Origin: a bacterium
GTDB taxonomy: Bacteria > Pseudomonadota > Gammaproteobacteria > Nevskiales > OUC007
NCBI GenBank assembly: GCA_018222345.1
Contig: JAAFAL010000020.1
Span: 1-32,402 of the forward strand
DNA: 32,402 bases
Direction: 5' to 3'
Below are positions 11,029 through 25,228 of this stretch, piece by piece. The notes beneath the pieces are model-generated. The model was not told the DNA's origin, did no database searches, and was given only the letters and a program-made list of their open reading frames with translations. The position numbers and the translations under genes are program-made. Each line of letters opens with the position of its first letter. The stretch's first letter is position 1.

Positions 11029-11514
11029 TCAGGCAACACTTTCCAAATAGCTGCTAAGGCATTGAATAATTCTTTCGCCGCGAGGCGTGAGCCCGTTGAT
11101 GACAACCGAGCGTGCCTCGTCTGCGTAATCCAACACAACGCTGGCATCGACGGTGGGCAAAAACTCGCCAGCACGGGCCGGCCATTCCACCAACCAAACA
11201 CCACTACTCTCCTCTACACCCAGTTCGACAAAGGCCTCTGGCGCCTCCAACCGGTATAGGTCCATATGCAGCACCGGCGGCGCGGTGTCGTACGGTTCCA
11301 CCAGCGTGTAAGTCGGGCTTTTGACCGTGCCAGCGTGCCCCAGCGCCTGAACGAAACCACGTGCCAGCGTCGTTTTGCCTGCGCCAAGTGGGCCTTGCAG
11401 GGTGATTACGACACGCATCTGAGCAGTGGCTGATGCCTGCTCTACGCTGGCTGCGAGCGCTGCGCCAAGCGCCAATGTCGCGGGCTCATCGGCTAGCTTG
11501 CAGGTTTGTTTCAT
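11029..11514 (-). CDS. tsaE: tRNA threonylcarbamoyladenosine biosynthesis ATPase TsaE
   Basis: TsaE is the small P-loop ATPase that works with TsaB and TsaD to transfer the threonylcarbamoyl group to A37 of ANN-decoding tRNAs. The 161-residue protein has the P-loop GPLGAGKT at 41-48. It is followed by the family motifs VKSPTYTLVEPYD, LHMDLYRL, and GVWLVEWPARAGEFLP. Its ATG overlaps the nnr stop by 4 nt (ATGA). Length and motifs are standard for the family, and the nnr-tsaE-amidase order is the same as in E. coli (yjeF-yjeE-amiB). Confidence 0.95.
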   Translation of the reverse strand: MKQTCKLADEPATLALGAALAASVEQASATAQMRVVITLQGPLGAGKTTLARGFVQALGHAGTVKSPTYTLVEPYDTAPPVLHMDLYRLEAPEAFVELGVEESSGVWLVEWPARAGEFLPTVDASVVLDYADEARSVVINGLTPRGERIIQCLSSYLESVA

Positions 11515-12998
11515 GAATTGAGCACGGCGCGCAACTGCGCAATCACATCGCTGGGCAACAGGCCACGCTGGCCCGTTTCCGCGGCGCGGTCGCCGGCCAC
11601 AGCATGTGCCAACACAGCCAGCCGCGCAGCCTCGGGCAAGTCAAACCCCTGCGCAATGAGCGCGGCAATAACACCTGTGAGCACATCGCCCATGCCGCCC
11701 ACGGCCATGCCGGGGTTGCCCGCCGCGCACATGGCCGGTGGCGCATCTGCGGTGGCAATCAAACTCCCCTGGCCTTTGAGCACCGCCACGGCGCCCGTCA
11801 GCGCGGCCAACTCGCGCGCAGCAGCGAAGCGATCTTGCTGGATTTTGTCCGTGTCACACGCCAGCAAGCGCGCGGCTTCGCCGGGGTGCGGCGTGATGAC
11901 GGCATTGTTCAGCGGCCACGAGCGATTTTGCGCCAACAAATTCAGCGCATCGGCGTCAAACACTGTCGGCAGACCAACCGCCAGCACGCGATCCAGTAAA
12001 GCCTTAGCCCAAGCGTCCTGCCCCAGCCCGGGCCCGATGGCGACAACAGTCGCTGCGCTTAGAGCCTGATCCACGTCGCCGATATTTTCTACCGCGCAAA
12101 CCATGGCCTCGGCCTGCGCCGAGACAATGGCCGAAACATGATCCGGCCGCGTGGCCACAGTGACCAGCCCAGCACCGGCACGCAGCGCCGCCTGCGTGGC
12201 CAATACCGCTGCGCCCGGCATGCCGTAATTGCCGCCAACAATCAGCACGTGGCCATGCTGGCCTTTGTGCGCAGCGGCCGACCGCGCCGGCAGCGCATTC
12301 AACATATCGTTTGACATGCAGTAGGCAATCGGCTGCTGGGTGGCGCGCGCAGGCTCGGGCAAGTCCAGCGGCGCGTGAACAACGTCGCCAGCCAGGGTTG
12401 CGCCCTGGCCCATGAACAATCCTGGCGTCTGACCAATAAAGCTGGCCGTCACATCGGCCCGCACGGCAGCGCCAAGCACTGCGCCCGTATCGCCATGCAG
12501 GCCGCTGGGGATATCCAGCGCCAAGACGGGTGCTTTGCTGTTGTTGAGTTGCGCGATCGCCTCAGCCTGGGCGCTACGCACCTGGCCATCCAGGCCACTG
12601 CCCAGCATCGCATCGATCACCACATCGGCATTACGTAGCCACGACGGATCGAACGGATGAATGGGTTCGCCTGTGGCTTGCCAGGCCGCCAAGGCCTGCG
12701 CCGCCTCGCCGCCCTTGTCGGCAATACGCTGCGCATCGCCAAGCAAGCAGACCACGGGGTCCAGCCCGGCGGCCAAGGCCTGCCGCGCCAGATCAATGCC
12801 ATCGCCGCCGTTATTGCCCGTACCAGCCACCACAACAATGCGCCGCGCTCGGGGCCAGCGCTGTTGCAACAGGTGCAGGGCCGCCGCGGCCGCCTGCTGC
12901 ATGAGGCCATAGCCATCGACTCCGTAATCGTCGATGGCGGCGCGATCCAGCGCCCGGACTTGCTCGCTTCGATACAATGCTGTGCCTAGCCCGAACAT
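11511..12998 (-). CDS. nnr: Bifunctional NAD(P)HX epimerase / ADP-dependent NAD(P)HX dehydratase
   Basis: This fused repair enzyme restores hydrated NADH and NADPH. The epimerase half (about 1-215) shows DYGVDGYGLMQQAAAAAL, VVAGTGNNGGDGIDLAR and VIDAMLGSGLDG. The dehydratase half (about 230-495, ribokinase-like) shows GKGQHGHVLIVGG-type sequence (HKGQHGHVLIVGG), ATVVAIGPGLGQD, FDADALNLLA, VITPHPGEAARLL, AVLKGQGSLIA and GNPGMAVGGMGDVLTGVIAALIAQG. The 495 residues fit the fused family. It is the first gene of the minus-strand superoperon and diverges from queG. A possible promoter lies just upstream in an AT-rich patch. Confidence 0.95.
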   Translation of the reverse strand: MFGLGTALYRSEQVRALDRAAIDDYGVDGYGLMQQAAAAALHLLQQRWPRARRIVVVAGTGNNGGDGIDLARQALAAGLDPVVCLLGDAQRIADKGGEAAQALAAWQATGEPIHPFDPSWLRNADVVIDAMLGSGLDGQVRSAQAEAIAQLNNSKAPVLALDIPSGLHGDTGAVLGAAVRADVTASFIGQTPGLFMGQGATLAGDVVHAPLDLPEPARATQQPIAYCMSNDMLNALPARSAAAHKGQHGHVLIVGGNYGMPGAAVLATQAALRAGAGLVTVATRPDHVSAIVSAQAEAMVCAVENIGDVDQALSAATVVAIGPGLGQDAWAKALLDRVLAVGLPTVFDADALNLLAQNRSWPLNNAVITPHPGEAARLLACDTDKIQQDRFAAARELAALTGAVAVLKGQGSLIATADAPPAMCAAGNPGMAVGGMGDVLTGVIAALIAQGFDLPEAARLAVLAHAVAGDRAAETGQRGLLPSDVIAQLRAVLNS

Positions 12999-13210: not shown

Positions 13211-13259
13211 GCATCACGTGAATTGTTCAGGCTAGCATCGCCACATTATGGAGGGTCTC

Positions 13260-14375
13260 GTGGCACATGCCGACCCCGCCGCGGCAAATTCCGACGCCGG
13301 CGCATTGCAGCGCATTGCCGACGCGCTGCCCGAATGGGCGGCAGCGCAAGGTTTCAATGGCCTGGGCATTACCCGGATTGCGCTGGATGCCGATGCAGCC
13401 CACCTGCGTAAGTGGTTAGACCGCGCACACCACGGCAGCATGGACTGGATGGCGCGCCATGCCGCGCTGCGTAGCGACCCGGCCGCGCTGCACCCCGGCA
13501 CGATCCGTGTGGTCTCCGTGCGCATGCCCTACTTGCCGGAATCAATCCAACAGGCCGAAGCAGCGTTGGGTGACAGCAGCCGGGCCTACATCAGCCGCTA
13601 CGCCCTGGGGCGCGACTATCACAAGCTGATGCGCAAACGCCTGAAAAAACTTGGCGCGCAGATCGAACAAGCCATCGCCGAAGCCTTGCCCAGCCTACGC
13701 GCCGACCAGCGCCCGTTTGTCGATAGCGGACCGGTGCTGGAAAAAGCCCTGGCACGCGATGCGCGGCTGGGCTGGATCGGCAAACACACGCTGTTGCTGC
13801 AGCGCGACCAGGGCTCGTTCTTTTTCCTTGGCGAATTGCTGACCAACCTACCGCTACCGGAAACCCAGGCCGCGCCAGTCCGCGATCTGTGTGGCAGTTG
13901 CAGCGCCTGCATCGACATTTGCCCGACCGGCGCCATCATCGGCCCGCAGCAATTGGATGCGCGGCGGTGTATTTCCTACCTGACCATCGAGCACGACGGG
14001 CCGATCCCGCTTGAGCTGCGCGCCGACATTGGCAACCGCATTTTCGGCTGCGACGACTGCCAACTGGTGTGCCCGTGGAACCGCCACGCCACGCCCAGCC
14101 GCGAGGCCGACTTTGCCCCGCGCCATGGCCTGGACACCGCGACGCTGCTGGAGTTGTGGGCCTGGGACGAAGCCACCTGGCTGCGCAACACCGAAGGCAT
14201 GGCGCTGCGCCGCGCCGGTTGGCAGGGCTGGCGGCGGAACTTGGCTGTGGCGCTGGGCAATGCGCCGCCTTTACCAGAAGCAGTACAAGCCTTGGAAGCC
14301 GCCAAGCCCGATGCAAGCGATCTAGTTACCGAGCACATCGAATGGGCGATTACCCGACTGACTCAGGCATGCTGA
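13260..14375 (+). CDS. queG: Epoxyqueuosine reductase QueG
   Basis: QueG is a cobalamin-dependent iron-sulfur enzyme that reduces epoxyqueuosine to queuosine in tRNA, the last step of the pathway. I place the start at GTG 13260, preceded by GGAGGG; the ATG at 13248 would swallow that site, but the choice is not certain. The 371-residue product carries PFVDSGPVLEK, whose Asp (about 155) corresponds to the proposed catalytic acid. LGWIGKHTLLLQ follows. Two [4Fe-4S] motifs are present: CGSCSACIDICP (211-222) and CDDCQLVCPW (264-273). HEAT-like repeats make up the C-terminus. It diverges from nnr as in E. coli (yjeS/yjeF), and its 3' end overlaps the convergent next gene by 13 nt. Confidence 0.95.
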   Translation: MAHADPAAANSDAGALQRIADALPEWAAAQGFNGLGITRIALDADAAHLRKWLDRAHHGSMDWMARHAALRSDPAALHPGTIRVVSVRMPYLPESIQQAEAALGDSSRAYISRYALGRDYHKLMRKRLKKLGAQIEQAIAEALPSLRADQRPFVDSGPVLEKALARDARLGWIGKHTLLLQRDQGSFFFLGELLTNLPLPETQAAPVRDLCGSCSACIDICPTGAIIGPQQLDARRCISYLTIEHDGPIPLELRADIGNRIFGCDDCQLVCPWNRHATPSREADFAPRHGLDTATLLELWAWDEATWLRNTEGMALRRAGWQGWRRNLAVALGNAPPLPEAVQALEAAKPDASDLVTEHIEWAITRLTQAC

Positions 14376-14884
14376 TGTGGCTTGCGGCCTAAGCGCCGCG
14401 CCGCGTGCGCACAGCCGCGGCAGCCGCCGGACATCAGCGCCCAAACAAGCAGCCCGCCCAGCACCGCAAACAGTAGGTGGTCGGGCGAAAATCCAAAACC
14501 TGGTTTGAAGCTGTCCCAAGTGGCACGCAGGTCGGCTTTGCGCGCATCAGTGAGCATGTGCTGCGCCGCCGATACTGGCCCAGCGCGCATCTCGCTAACG
14601 GCGCGCGTGTACCAGGCCACTGCATTGGCGATTTGCGTCACCGCATCTGCCGTTTCACGCACGCTGGCATCGTCATTGCGGCGGTACGCGGCCACCAGCG
14701 AAGCCAAACTGCCATTGTGGTGGCGGTCGGCGATGCGCTGAAACGGGGCCAAGTCGGCCTGGGCCTGTACTTGGCGGCCCTCGATGCGTTGCTGGTATTG
14801 CTGCGCAAAACTGGGAACGGCTGCAGCGGCCAACACGCAGGCAATCAGCAGCAAGCGGTCGGCAAACCCGGCCAGCCAGCGCAT
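14363..14884 (-). CDS. DUF2937-like membrane protein of unknown function
   Basis: This is a 173-residue protein. An N-terminal hydrophobic segment (about 7-27, FADRLLLIACVLAAAAVPSF) is followed by FAQQYQQRIEGRQVQAQADLAPFQ and a helical charged middle. A second hydrophobic segment (about 133-151, HLLFAVLGGLLVWALMSGG) comes next, then a basic, His-ended tail. The pattern fits the DUF2937 family, for which I know no biochemical function. The ATG at 14884 sits directly against the end of a MITE. Without the element, the start codon would overlap the pgi stop as TAATG, so this gene was probably translationally coupled to pgi. No Shine-Dalgarno sequence is visible in the element end that now precedes it, so expression may be reduced. 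Confidence 0.75.
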   Translation of the reverse strand: MRWLAGFADRLLLIACVLAAAAVPSFAQQYQQRIEGRQVQAQADLAPFQRIADRHHNGSLASLVAAYRRNDDASVRETADAVTQIANAVAWYTRAVSEMRAGPVSAAQHMLTDARKADLRATWDSFKPGFGFSPDHLLFAVLGGLLVWALMSGGCRGCAHAARRLGRKPHQHA

Positions 14885-14886
14885 TA

Positions 14887-15151
14887 GGGCCTGTTCACAC
14901 TATTTGAATGCGCCTCGCCGAAGGCCGATTTTTTCTCAGACAAGGCGCGCTGAGTGCCGTTTAGCAAGGCTAAACCAGCGATGCGCAACGCTGCATGAGG
15001 AAAAATTGGTCCGGCCCGAAGGGTTGGCCCTGAAATCAGGCCATCCGGCGTTGCTCGTCGTTCATTTGGAATGACCAAACATCTCTCCTCGCGCCTTGCC
15101 TGGCCTGATTTCAGGGTCAACGCGGCGCATTCAAATAGTGTGAACAGGCCC
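14887..15151. mobile_element. 265-bp MITE with 27-bp perfect terminal inverted repeats and TA flanks (copy 1)
   Basis: The ends 14887-14913 and 15125-15151 are perfect 27-bp inverted repeats beginning GGGCCTGTTCACAC. TA is present on both sides (14885-14886 and 15152-15153), consistent with a TA target duplication as made by IS630/Tc1-mariner-type or some IS5-type transposases. Internal structure includes 16-bp perfect inverted arms (15028-15043 and 15101-15116) and a short hairpin, TTCATTTGGAATGA. There is no transposase. A second copy of exactly the same length lies at 24392-24656. The element separates pgi from the DUF2937-like gene. Confidence 0.88.
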
Positions 15152-16788
15152 TAGCTAGCCATCTTGGCGATCAATGCCGTGGTTGAAGCGTCGTGCGCTT
15201 GCGCCTCGCCGCCGCTCAATTCGGCATCAATCACGGTGGCCAATTGCTTGCCCAACTCGACGCCCCATTGGTCGAAGGCGTTGATGTCCCACAGCACGCT
15301 TTGCACGAACACCTTGTGCTCATACAGCGCGATCAGGCTGCCCAATGTGTTGGCATCCACGGTTGGCAACACAATGGTTGTGCTGGGGCGGTTGCCGGTA
15401 AAGACGCGATGCGGGATGGCGGCCTCCAGCGCGTCGCCGGCCAAGCCTTTCGCGGTCAGTTCTTCACGCACCTGCTCCGCCGTTTTGCCACACATCAGCG
15501 CCTCGCTTTGCGCCAGGCAATTGGCCACCAGCATGCGGTGCTGATGATCGACATCGTGGCCGAGCTTTTTCGGCAGGATGAAATCCACCGGCAGCGCTTG
15601 CGGGCCCTGGTGCAGCATTTGGAAGAAGGCATGCTGGCCGTTGGTGCCGATGTCACCCCAAAGGCTGACAATGGTTTGCCGCGGCACGGGCGCGCCACCG
15701 CGGGTAACGCCCTTGCCCGTGGATTCCATCTCAAGCTGTTGCAGGTAGGCCGGCAGCCGCGCAAGCGCCTGCGCATACGGCACAATGACTTGGCTGGGCA
15801 GGCCGAGGGCATTGGTATTCCAGATGCCGATCAGGCCCAGCCAGACCGGCAGGTTTTCACGCAGCGGCGCAGTTTGAAAGTGCTCATCCATCGCATGCGC
15901 GCCAGCGAGTAAATCGCGAAAGCTATCCATGCCCACAGCCAGTGCAATGGACAAACCCACCGCCGACCACAGCGAATAGCGCCCTCCGACCCAATCCCAG
16001 AAACCGAACATATTGTCGGTGTCGATACCGAAGTCGGCCACAGCGGCGTGGTTGGTCGAAACTGCTACAAAGTGTTTGGCGACGTCGGCGTCATCACCCA
16101 ATTTCCCGAGCAACCACGCTTTCGCGGTCGCGGCATTTGCCAGCGTTTCGGCGGTGCCAAAACTTTTGCTTGTGACAATAAACAGCGTCGTCGCGGCATC
16201 CAGGCCGGCGCACACGCGGGTAATTTCGGTGGCATCGACGTTGCTGACGAAGTGCACCTGCAGCGGCTGCTCGCCAGCCACCAGCGCCTCGCAAACCATG
16301 CGCGGGCCCAGGTCGGAGCCGCCTATGCCGATGTTCACGACATCGGTGATGCGCTGGCCCGTGTGGCCCAGCCAATCGCCATCGCGCACGCGCGTGGTGA
16401 ACGCTGCCACGCGGTCGAGCACCTCATGAACATCGCCCATGACCGGCTCGCCCAATGCGGCAAAGTCGGCCTCACGCGGCGCGCGCAATGCGGGGTGCAG
16501 CACGGCGCGGCCTTCAGTGTGGTTGATTGGCTCGCCGGCGAACAGGCGGGCAATCCAACTGGGCAGATCCGCGGCGTCGGCCAGCGCAAACAGGGCGTCT
16601 AGGCTGGCAGCATCGACACGCTGTTTGGAAAAATCCGCATACAGGCCACAGGCTTCGACGCCCATGGCGCCGACACGGCCGGGTTCAGCCGCAAACAACT
16701 CGTTGAGGGTGGTACCGCCGAGCGCGTGTGCGGCGGCATCAATTTGTGCCCAGGCCACCTCGCGGCGGGGCGTGGTGGACTGCGTCAT
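15151..16788 (-). CDS. pgi: Glucose-6-phosphate isomerase
   Basis: The enzyme interconverts glucose 6-phosphate and fructose 6-phosphate in glycolysis and gluconeogenesis. The 545-residue length is normal. Hallmarks are NIGIGGSDLGPRM, FVSNVDATEI, TSKSFGTAETLANA (family norm TSKTFTTxET), the signature DWVGGRYSLWSAVGLSIAL, GTNGQHAFFQMLHQG with its catalytic His, and the C-terminal HKVFVQSVLWDINAFDQWGV. The stop codon is TAG, made of the TA insertion site plus the first G of the adjoining MITE; without the element it would be TAA. It lies 15 nt downstream of panD and is likely co-transcribed with it. Confidence 0.96.
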   Translation of the reverse strand: MTQSTTPRREVAWAQIDAAAHALGGTTLNELFAAEPGRVGAMGVEACGLYADFSKQRVDAASLDALFALADAADLPSWIARLFAGEPINHTEGRAVLHPALRAPREADFAALGEPVMGDVHEVLDRVAAFTTRVRDGDWLGHTGQRITDVVNIGIGGSDLGPRMVCEALVAGEQPLQVHFVSNVDATEITRVCAGLDAATTLFIVTSKSFGTAETLANAATAKAWLLGKLGDDADVAKHFVAVSTNHAAVADFGIDTDNMFGFWDWVGGRYSLWSAVGLSIALAVGMDSFRDLLAGAHAMDEHFQTAPLRENLPVWLGLIGIWNTNALGLPSQVIVPYAQALARLPAYLQQLEMESTGKGVTRGGAPVPRQTIVSLWGDIGTNGQHAFFQMLHQGPQALPVDFILPKKLGHDVDHQHRMLVANCLAQSEALMCGKTAEQVREELTAKGLAGDALEAAIPHRVFTGNRPSTTIVLPTVDANTLGSLIALYEHKVFVQSVLWDINAFDQWGVELGKQLATVIDAELSGGEAQAHDASTTALIAKMAS

Positions 16789-23512: not shown

Positions 23513-24385
23513 ATGAAGTTGCTATTCAAATTCTTGTCGTATTGGCCGCTGGGGGCCTTGCAATCCCTTGGCGCGCTAGTCGGGTGGATGATGTGGCTGG
23601 CTGGTAGCAAGCGCCGCCGCGTGGCCGTGCGCAATGTGTCGGCCTGCTTTCCGGAATTGACGCCCGCGCAAGTGCGAAGACGCGCAAGGCGCGCACTGGT
23701 CGCCGAGATGCAGACGCTCACCGAAATGCCGCTGATCTGGCTAGGCAGCACGCCGCGCGTGCGCAAACTTTGGGTGGATTCCATTGGCATGCAGCACCTG
23801 GACGCCGCTATCGCCCAAGGCCGTGGTGTGATCATGCTGACCATGCACTATGGCTCGTTCGAAGGCACTGCAATTCCCTACTCCGAGCATCAGGCGATCA
23901 CCGGCGTTTACAAGCCGCAAAAAGGCGCGCTCGAGGACTTGTCAGTCGCCGGCCGCACGCGTTTCAAGGGCCGTTTGGTGCCGGCGATTGGTGGGCAAGT
24001 GCGCCAGCAAATGATTGAGCAACTCCGCCAGGGCGAGCTGGTCTATTTTCTGCCCGATCAGGACCCACCCGAAGGCCGCGGCGTATTTGCGCCGTTTTTC
24101 GGCGTTCAGGCGCACACACCAAGCCTGGCGGCGAAGCTCATCCGCGAATATGACGCGCCCATCGTGTTCATGTTCGGTGAGCGGCTGGCGTTAGGCAGGG
24201 GCTTCCGCATGCACGTGCGACCACCGATTGACGACGCCATTTACAGCCACGACATCGACACCGCCGTGACTGCACTCAACGCCAATGTCGAGGCCTGCGT
24301 GCAGCAGTTCCCCGACCAATATTGGTGGGGCTACCGGCGCTTTCGCCGCCGGCCGCCGGGCGAGCCGCCGTTTTATACAGATTGA
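23513..24385 (+). CDS. LpxL/HtrB-family lipid A biosynthesis acyltransferase
   Basis: This is a predicted inner-membrane enzyme transferring a secondary acyl chain to the lipid A precursor. The 290-residue protein has an N-terminal hydrophobic stretch (about 5-30, FKFLSYWPLGALQSLGALVGW). NVSACFPELTPAQVRRRARRAL follows, then the catalytic HX4E box MHYGSFEG and YKPQKGALEDL. YFLPDQDPPEGRGVFAPFFG and the late DQYWWGYRRFRRRPPGE complete the set. It begins 21 nt after the ATPase gene and may be co-transcribed with it. Chain length and position (LpxL, LpxM or LpxP role) cannot be told from sequence alone. Confidence 0.9.
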   Translation: MKLLFKFLSYWPLGALQSLGALVGWMMWLAGSKRRRVAVRNVSACFPELTPAQVRRRARRALVAEMQTLTEMPLIWLGSTPRVRKLWVDSIGMQHLDAAIAQGRGVIMLTMHYGSFEGTAIPYSEHQAITGVYKPQKGALEDLSVAGRTRFKGRLVPAIGGQVRQQMIEQLRQGELVYFLPDQDPPEGRGVFAPFFGVQAHTPSLAAKLIREYDAPIVFMFGERLALGRGFRMHVRPPIDDAIYSHDIDTAVTALNANVEACVQQFPDQYWWGYRRFRRRPPGEPPFYTD

Positions 24386-24391
24386 CGGCTA

Positions 24392-24656
24392 GGGCCTGTT
24401 CACACTATTTGGATACGCCTCGCCGAAGGCAGATTTTTTGCCAGGCAAGGCGTGTTGAGCGCCGTTTAGCACGGCTAAATCAGCGAAACACAACGCAGTA
24501 TGGCCAAAAATCTGTCCGGCCCGAAGGGTTGGCCCTGAAATCAGGCCATCCGGCGTTGCTCGTCGTTCATTTGGAATGACCAAATGTCTCTCCTCGCGCC
24601 TTGACTGACCTGATTTCAGGGCCAACGCGGCGCATTCAAATAGTGTAAACAGGCCC
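24392..24656. mobile_element. 265-bp MITE, second copy, TA-flanked
   Basis: This element has the same length and organisation as the copy at 14887-15151, with TA at 24390-24391 and 24657-24658. The terminal repeats begin GGGCCTGTT but have drifted at three positions relative to each other, whereas copy 1 is perfect, so this copy looks older. The shared internal arms with CCTGAAATCAGGCC and its inverse are kept with small changes. It sits between two convergent genes, just after the acyltransferase stop, and its last G completes the TAG stop of the lipocalin gene. It has no coding capacity of its own. Confidence 0.87.
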
Positions 24657-25228
24657 TAATCGAACGCGCCGGCAGGCAGTGGCCGGTCGTTGCGCTTGGC
24701 AAGTGGCTGCTGCGGCACGTAGCGCAGCTTGCTGATGTCGTAGCCCAAGTCGGCCACGCGCTGTTCCAGGGCGTCGGCAGTGTCGTCGTCAATCTGCGGC
24801 GTGCGCGCCATCACCCAAACCCAGTCGCGCTTTGAGCGCGCGACGATGGTGGTTTGGTAATCGGGCGATACATAGCTGATGGTGTATTCCATCTTGATCG
24901 GCCAAAAGAATTGCATGGCCCATACGGCGCCGTCGGACTCCTCGATGACCTTCGCCACCGGCTGCATCGACTTGGCTTCACCGGCAAAGCTGCCCTCGCG
25001 ATAGGTGTAAACGGTCTGGATGGTGTCGTCATCAACCAGCTTGTAGCTCTCGATGTTGTTGTAAGAGTCGGCGACGACGTCGGGCGGAATGTGCGCGATC
25101 ACATACCAGTCGCCCATGTAGCGGCTCACATCGACCGACGCTTCACGCGGGAAGTCGGCAGGCGGCATCACGCTACATGCAGTTAGCAAGACCAAAGGCA
25201 ACAGGCAGGACAGGCGGGGCAAGCTCAT
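24656..25228 (-). CDS. Lipocalin-family outer-membrane lipoprotein (Blc-like)
   Basis: This is a 190-residue lipoprotein with a signal peptide ending in the lipobox LTAC (Cys18). The lipocalin fold is shown by VDVSRYMGDWYVIAHIPP (the GxW motif), YKLVDDDTIQTVYTYREGSF, and WAMQFFWPIKMEYTISYVSPDYQTTIVARSKRDWVWVMARTP. The following DLGYDISKLRYVPQQ is also usual in bacterial lipocalins such as Blc, which bind lysophospholipids or fatty acids in the envelope. Residue 2 of the mature part is Ser, which predicts sorting to the outer membrane. It diverges from degP with a 191-bp gap between the genes. Confidence 0.88.
   Translation of the reverse strand: MSLPRLSCLLPLVLLTACSVMPPADFPREASVDVSRYMGDWYVIAHIPPDVVADSYNNIESYKLVDDDTIQTVYTYREGSFAGEAKSMQPVAKVIEESDGAVWAMQFFWPIKMEYTISYVSPDYQTTIVARSKRDWVWVMARTPQIDDDTADALEQRVADLGYDISKLRYVPQQPLAKRNDRPLPAGAFD

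Follow-up and report, generated by a model that had tools for sequence, protein, structure and literature searches.

A TA-target MITE in the stop codon of pgi, most likely within a former TAATG overlap with a DUF2937 gene, and the recurrence of such insertions in stop codons

A non-autonomous, TA-target MITE separates pgi from a DUF2937 gene in the window examined here, the window being the whole 32,402-nucleotide stretch of DNA that was analyzed. We consider it likely, with a probability of roughly 0.78, that the element reached this position by in-place insertion at the TA of the stop of pgi, a stop that most likely overlapped the DUF2937 ATG as TAATG. The first G of the element re-creates the stop as TAG and leaves the pgi protein unchanged, and the effect on the DUF2937 gene is likely to be modulation at most. 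The mover was probably a transposase of the IS630/Tc1-mariner type, which was not found in the assembly. This is an already-known kind of MITE insertion in a well-preserved state, and its added value lies in the recurrence of insertions in stop codons and in a natural comparison provided by hemA and prfA.

The 3' end of pgi, read on the minus strand, is GCC AAG ATG GCT AGC TA, followed by GGGCCTGTTCACAC...GTGTGAACAGGCCC and then by TA ATG CGC of the DUF2937 gene. Including the TA at each end, the MITE occupies 14885..15153 (269 bp, minus strand), with a core of 265 bp between the TAs (14887-15151); the preliminary description had given this junction, with its 265-bp element, exactly to the base. 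The element ends read TAGGGCCTGTT. Terminal inverted repeats of 33 nt, 97% complementary to each other, lie at 14885..14917 on the DUF2937 side and at 15121..15153 on the pgi side, and a 21-nt internal arm at 15023..15043 pairs with a second arm at 15101..15121 (95% complementary). The element is short and non-coding, carries terminal inverted repeats and has no transposase gene, the features by which a MITE is defined; together, the 33-nt repeats, five dispersed copies and TA flanks confirm the earlier identification of the insert as a MITE. An Rfam search of the window gave no match.

The surrounding genes were assigned by Pfam profiles, and the matches of pgi and of the DUF2937 gene lie well above the cut-off. 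The glucose-6-phosphate isomerase gene pgi (15151..16788, minus strand) matches PF00342 over profile positions 1-486 of 486 (E 4.4e-195). Its stop codon, TAG (15151..15153, minus strand), joins the TA of the target to the element's first G; the reconstructed empty site has TAA, in support of the conversion from TAA to TAG proposed earlier. The DUF2937 gene (14363..14884, minus strand; PF11157, E 5.6e-35) has an intact reading frame, with its ATG at 14884 directly following the right-hand TA. Beyond it lie the convergent queG (13248..14375, plus strand; Pfam QueG domains) and nnr (11511..12998, minus strand; NAD(P)HX epimerase/dehydratase with Pfam YjeF_N and Carb_kinase domains), in a conserved pgi-queG-nnr order. 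The 3' ends of the DUF2937 gene and queG overlap by 13 bases (14363-14375).

To define the target site, we used a script to delete the element and one TA from each of 39 sites whose ends were intact, yielding empty sites. The symmetrized consensus of these 39 was YTAR/CTAG, with C before the TA in 72% and G after it in 72%. The left junction was always xTAG and the right CTAx; because the two differ, only TA can be the duplication, and a 4-bp YTAR duplication of the IS5-like kind was ruled out. The TA duplication is also supported by a conserved gene in another genome, where a copy (L106, G036:C28:266524-266795) interrupts an acyltransferase gene. Joining the flanks with a single TA restores the reading frame and lets an Acyl_transf_3 domain span the insertion point without a break, which upholds the TA target with duplication given in the preliminary description.

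Such TA duplication is made by IS630/Tc1-mariner transposases (PMC2170065). The present MITE family shows TA-only target duplication and a preference for CTAG. Judging by its title, the 1991 paper of Tenzen and Ohtsubo reportedly describes a preference of IS630 for the TA in 5'-CTAG-3'. We looked for an autonomous partner with the same ends and found none in the element's own genome, among exact-end matches over the order, or among the matches listed for seven copy-rich genomes. The 30 PF13358 (IS630) loci fetched in the order have ends different from those of the MITE, and the element's own genome gave no PF13358 match. One candidate, L224 (G045:C1, near 441024), was rejected as an IS630-family element with ends TACTAACC that is apparently nested inside a MITE end. 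The partner transposase may be lost or unassembled. An autonomous partner is often missing for accepted MITEs and hence is not strictly required. Judged solely by its target behavior, the element behaves like one mobilized by an IS630/Tc1-mariner transposase; we do not file it as a member, since its ends match no IS630-type transposon found.

Five full copies of the element are present in the genome (269-270 bp, 88-100% identity), every one flanked TA..TA, along with one decayed single end. The second copy in the window (24390..24658, plus strand; 90% identical) sits in the stop of a lipocalin gene (24656-25228, minus strand), and it also lies 4 bases past the stop of a convergent neighbor (23513-24385). 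This 269-bp MITE family occurs across the order: similar DNA was found in 35 of 61 genomes searched, and 27 of 85 genomes from the order contain exact matches to the 17-base ends. Versions of 57 bp, comprising the two terminal repeats only with TA on both sides, were seen at L127, L130, L131, and L132 in G018 and at L123 in G075. The same genome as the pgi insertion, G000, also holds a second MITE family with ends TAGGGAAGCTCTGATTGAATC and a length of mostly ~276 bp (copies L155, L157, L159, L162, L164, L165, L167, L169, L171, and L176); the two families have ~55 bp of internal sequence in common and differ in their ends. Two further copies, L004 and L002, lie ~5 and ~10 bases ahead of a downstream ATG, which in L004 belongs to a rubredoxin-like gene. 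We found no report of this MITE family in the literature.

We then asked what the pgi junction looked like before insertion. Removing the element and one TA gives AGC TAATG and a reconstructed junction of pgi-AGCTAATG-DUF2937. As stated in the preliminary description, this TAATG overlap matches those of hflK/hflC and mutL/miaA, both of which read TAATG. Within a sample of this genome, TAATG junctions with a downstream coding frame made up 5 of 120, or ~4%, of TA-containing stops. No other genome had pgi adjacent to DUF2937, either among the order's genomes searched or in a scan of GTDB 220. That scan returned only two Gallionella MAG relatives for DUF2937, with no pgi in the surrounding DNA fetched, and the same was true of the DNA fetched around the DUF2937 genes of the order. 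In the same-family genomes G001-G003, pgi is 67-68% identical and is followed by a different gene, with no DUF2937; in G007, pgi overlaps nnr as ATGA and a DUF2937 homologue is located elsewhere. DUF2937 is the lineage-specific part of the locus. The genomes compared are too distant to refute an ancestral overlap, and the pgi-DUF2937 TAATG overlap is likely the ancestral state, as a reconstruction from the present junction.

The genome G006 has, without the element at this locus, pgi, then a convergent queG, then nnr, the same order as is found across the element here. The shared order speaks for insertion in place, in agreement with the earlier description, and against a junction formed by recombination between copies. 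Recombination between two element copies, with the rebuilt TAATG being accidental, would leave the same TA..TA flanks and would fit a DUF2937 gene that follows pgi only in this lineage. Against it are the pgi and queG-nnr neighbors in G006 and the rarity of a chance TA directly before an ATG, given the ~4% of TA stops that read TAATG. We regard recombination as very improbable.

Next, we examined how often the family lands in stop codons, classing sites with a statistical codon-usage classifier of ORFs. Across the order, 19 of the 39 intact sites were in the TAA or TAG stop of a coding ORF, 4 were inside genes, and 16 were elsewhere. Among the 35 non-interior sites, these 19 compare with 8.1 expected from matched target context (P = 5e-5), with the caveat that sites within a single genus may be partly dependent on one another. 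Three of the stop ORFs (L136, L151, and L177) resemble low-complexity antisense frames; excluding these doubtful ORFs left 16 stop-codon sites (P = 0.002). In four cases, encoding NadC, a prolyl oligopeptidase, a DUF484 protein, and a Fis-type HTH regulator, the Pfam domain stops only a few residues short of the element, which indicates natural gene ends. In this genome alone, the family occupies stops at 3 of 5 sites (pgi, lipocalin, and a 144-codon ORF), and the second family does so at 6 of 10 (P = 0.0017).

The YTAR preference was insufficient as a sole cause of this excess, given the context-matched expectation. Since the element begins with G, its entry into TAA or TAG always leaves TAG and does not alter the upstream protein; survival is plausibly more frequent for such insertions than for others outside gene interiors. 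We read the excess as target preference plus survivorship. The preliminary description held that the insertion "chose" the TA within the overlap; the rule is instead one of CTAG-like targets and tolerance of stop codons. These counts, rather than one anecdote, show how a G-starting, TA-target element can settle in a gene-dense genome via self-repaired stops.

The remaining question concerned the effect on DUF2937 expression. The preliminary description took the view that the operon was rewired and translational coupling cut; in this reading, the insertion would have broken termination-reinitiation between pgi and DUF2937 and strongly lowered DUF2937 expression. The reconstructed TAATG overlap speaks for this, as does the highly structured 265-nt insert between stop and start (z-score -8.5), and transcripts that contain repeats have been reported to undergo attenuation or cleavage by RNase III or RNase E as a result (PMC3049150). 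However, the ancestral overlap was seen in no relative searched, and the DUF2937 reading frame is intact. The observation that DUF2937 has no visible ribosome binding site was true and yet uninformative, as a strong Shine-Dalgarno is absent from most conserved genes of the window, whose predicted anti-Shine-Dalgarno energies are mostly weak, such as -3.1 kcal/mol for pgi and -0.4 kcal/mol for panB. For DUF2937 itself, the predicted value is -4.7 kcal/mol with the element versus -3.3 kcal/mol without it, and is therefore no worse with the element present.

A natural comparison is available at hemA/prfA of the same genome, where a second-family copy (L171, G000:C118:23800-24076) separates the two genes and the ATG of prfA is flush with the element end. 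After this element, prfA has almost no Shine-Dalgarno pairing (-0.3 kcal/mol). In G001-G003, hemA and prfA overlap as ATGA, versus the element-separated arrangement in G000; the former junction in G000 may be reconstructed as TAATG if one TA is assumed. The terminal bases of the L171 copy are altered (CA and TT), and the HemA reading frame now runs five codons into the element. The gene prfA encodes release factor 1 and is normally needed, which indicates that the flush-start arrangement is tolerated. With weak Shine-Dalgarno pairing usual here, the DUF2937 value no worse, and prfA arranged alike, the claim that translational coupling had been cut was not supported, and we consider the rewiring of the operon unlikely. 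In this genome, as prfA shows, a start codon that abuts a mobile element and lacks a Shine-Dalgarno is no evidence of lost expression.

An element that now drives DUF2937 alone through promoter activity at its ends would be a further possibility, and some insertions of Correia elements have been reported to bring outward promoters (PMC3049150). No sigma-70-like site was found in 14600-15400, and we judge this reading improbable. In the same interval, a terminator search gave a single pattern hit, no better than chance and located on the opposite strand.

RNA prediction places the arms in a stem of ~30 bp, with the pgi stop and the DUF2937 start at the two sides of its base. Pairing probabilities along the terminal repeats are 0.75-1.0 except at one mismatched position. 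A transcript across the element would carry this stem flush with stop and start and could be a substrate for RNase III. We also considered that the stem loops out the element, with stop and start kept next to each other while ribosomes or 30S subunits cross the stem base, much as in pararetroviral shunting. Stop and start do flank the stem base, arm pairing is near 1, nearly the same geometry occurs at the hemA/prfA element, and Caulimoviridae, plant pararetroviruses, are known to shunt ribosomes over a stem base that follows a stop codon (PMC3542737). However, we found no bacterial precedent, the base of the stem would be covered and melted by a ribosome terminating there, and ordinary initiation without a strong Shine-Dalgarno would be enough to explain tolerance; we hold this reading to be highly improbable. 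The wider proposal that MITEs of the order enter stop/start overlaps, rebuild the stop, and by a flush stem keep translation of DUF2937 and prfA following upstream termination is just as doubtful; were it true, bacteria would have their own counterpart of ribosome shunting, and this would make the insertions tolerable. Most likely, the pgi insertion is a tolerated one that at most modulates the downstream gene. At the pgi/DUF2937 and hemA/prfA sites, how such insertions affect translation between neighboring genes can be tested directly.

Finally, the element can be set beside known systems. RUP of Streptococcus pneumoniae is likewise short and non-coding, with terminal inverted repeats, a TA target, and no transposase gene, and its mobilization by IS630-Spn1 has been proposed (PMC2229807). 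RUP differs in having another sequence and a length of 107 bp, and no IS with matching ends was found for the present MITE. IS630 of Shigella sonnei and the IS630/Tc1-mariner family share the duplication of TA (PMC2170065), whereas the MITE is without a transposase gene and its ends match no IS630 element found in the order. MITEPsy1 of Pseudomonas syringae is also short and targets CTAG or YTAA (PMC3189936). Unlike the present MITE, which duplicates TA only, MITEPsy1 duplicates 4 nt and is probably IS5-derived. The Correia/NEMIS elements of Neisseria are similarly small inverted-repeat elements, and they use a TA target. Cleavage of their transcripts by RNase III has been reported (PMC3049150), while their sequence is unrelated to that of this MITE, for which such cleavage is only putative. 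That repeats supply stop codons was known beforehand from the BOX elements of Streptococcus pneumoniae, which provide the stop codon in 36 of 58 overlapped coding sequences (PMC3049150). BOX elements have another structure, whereas in the MITE described here, TA insertion plus the first G restores the stop where it originally stood.
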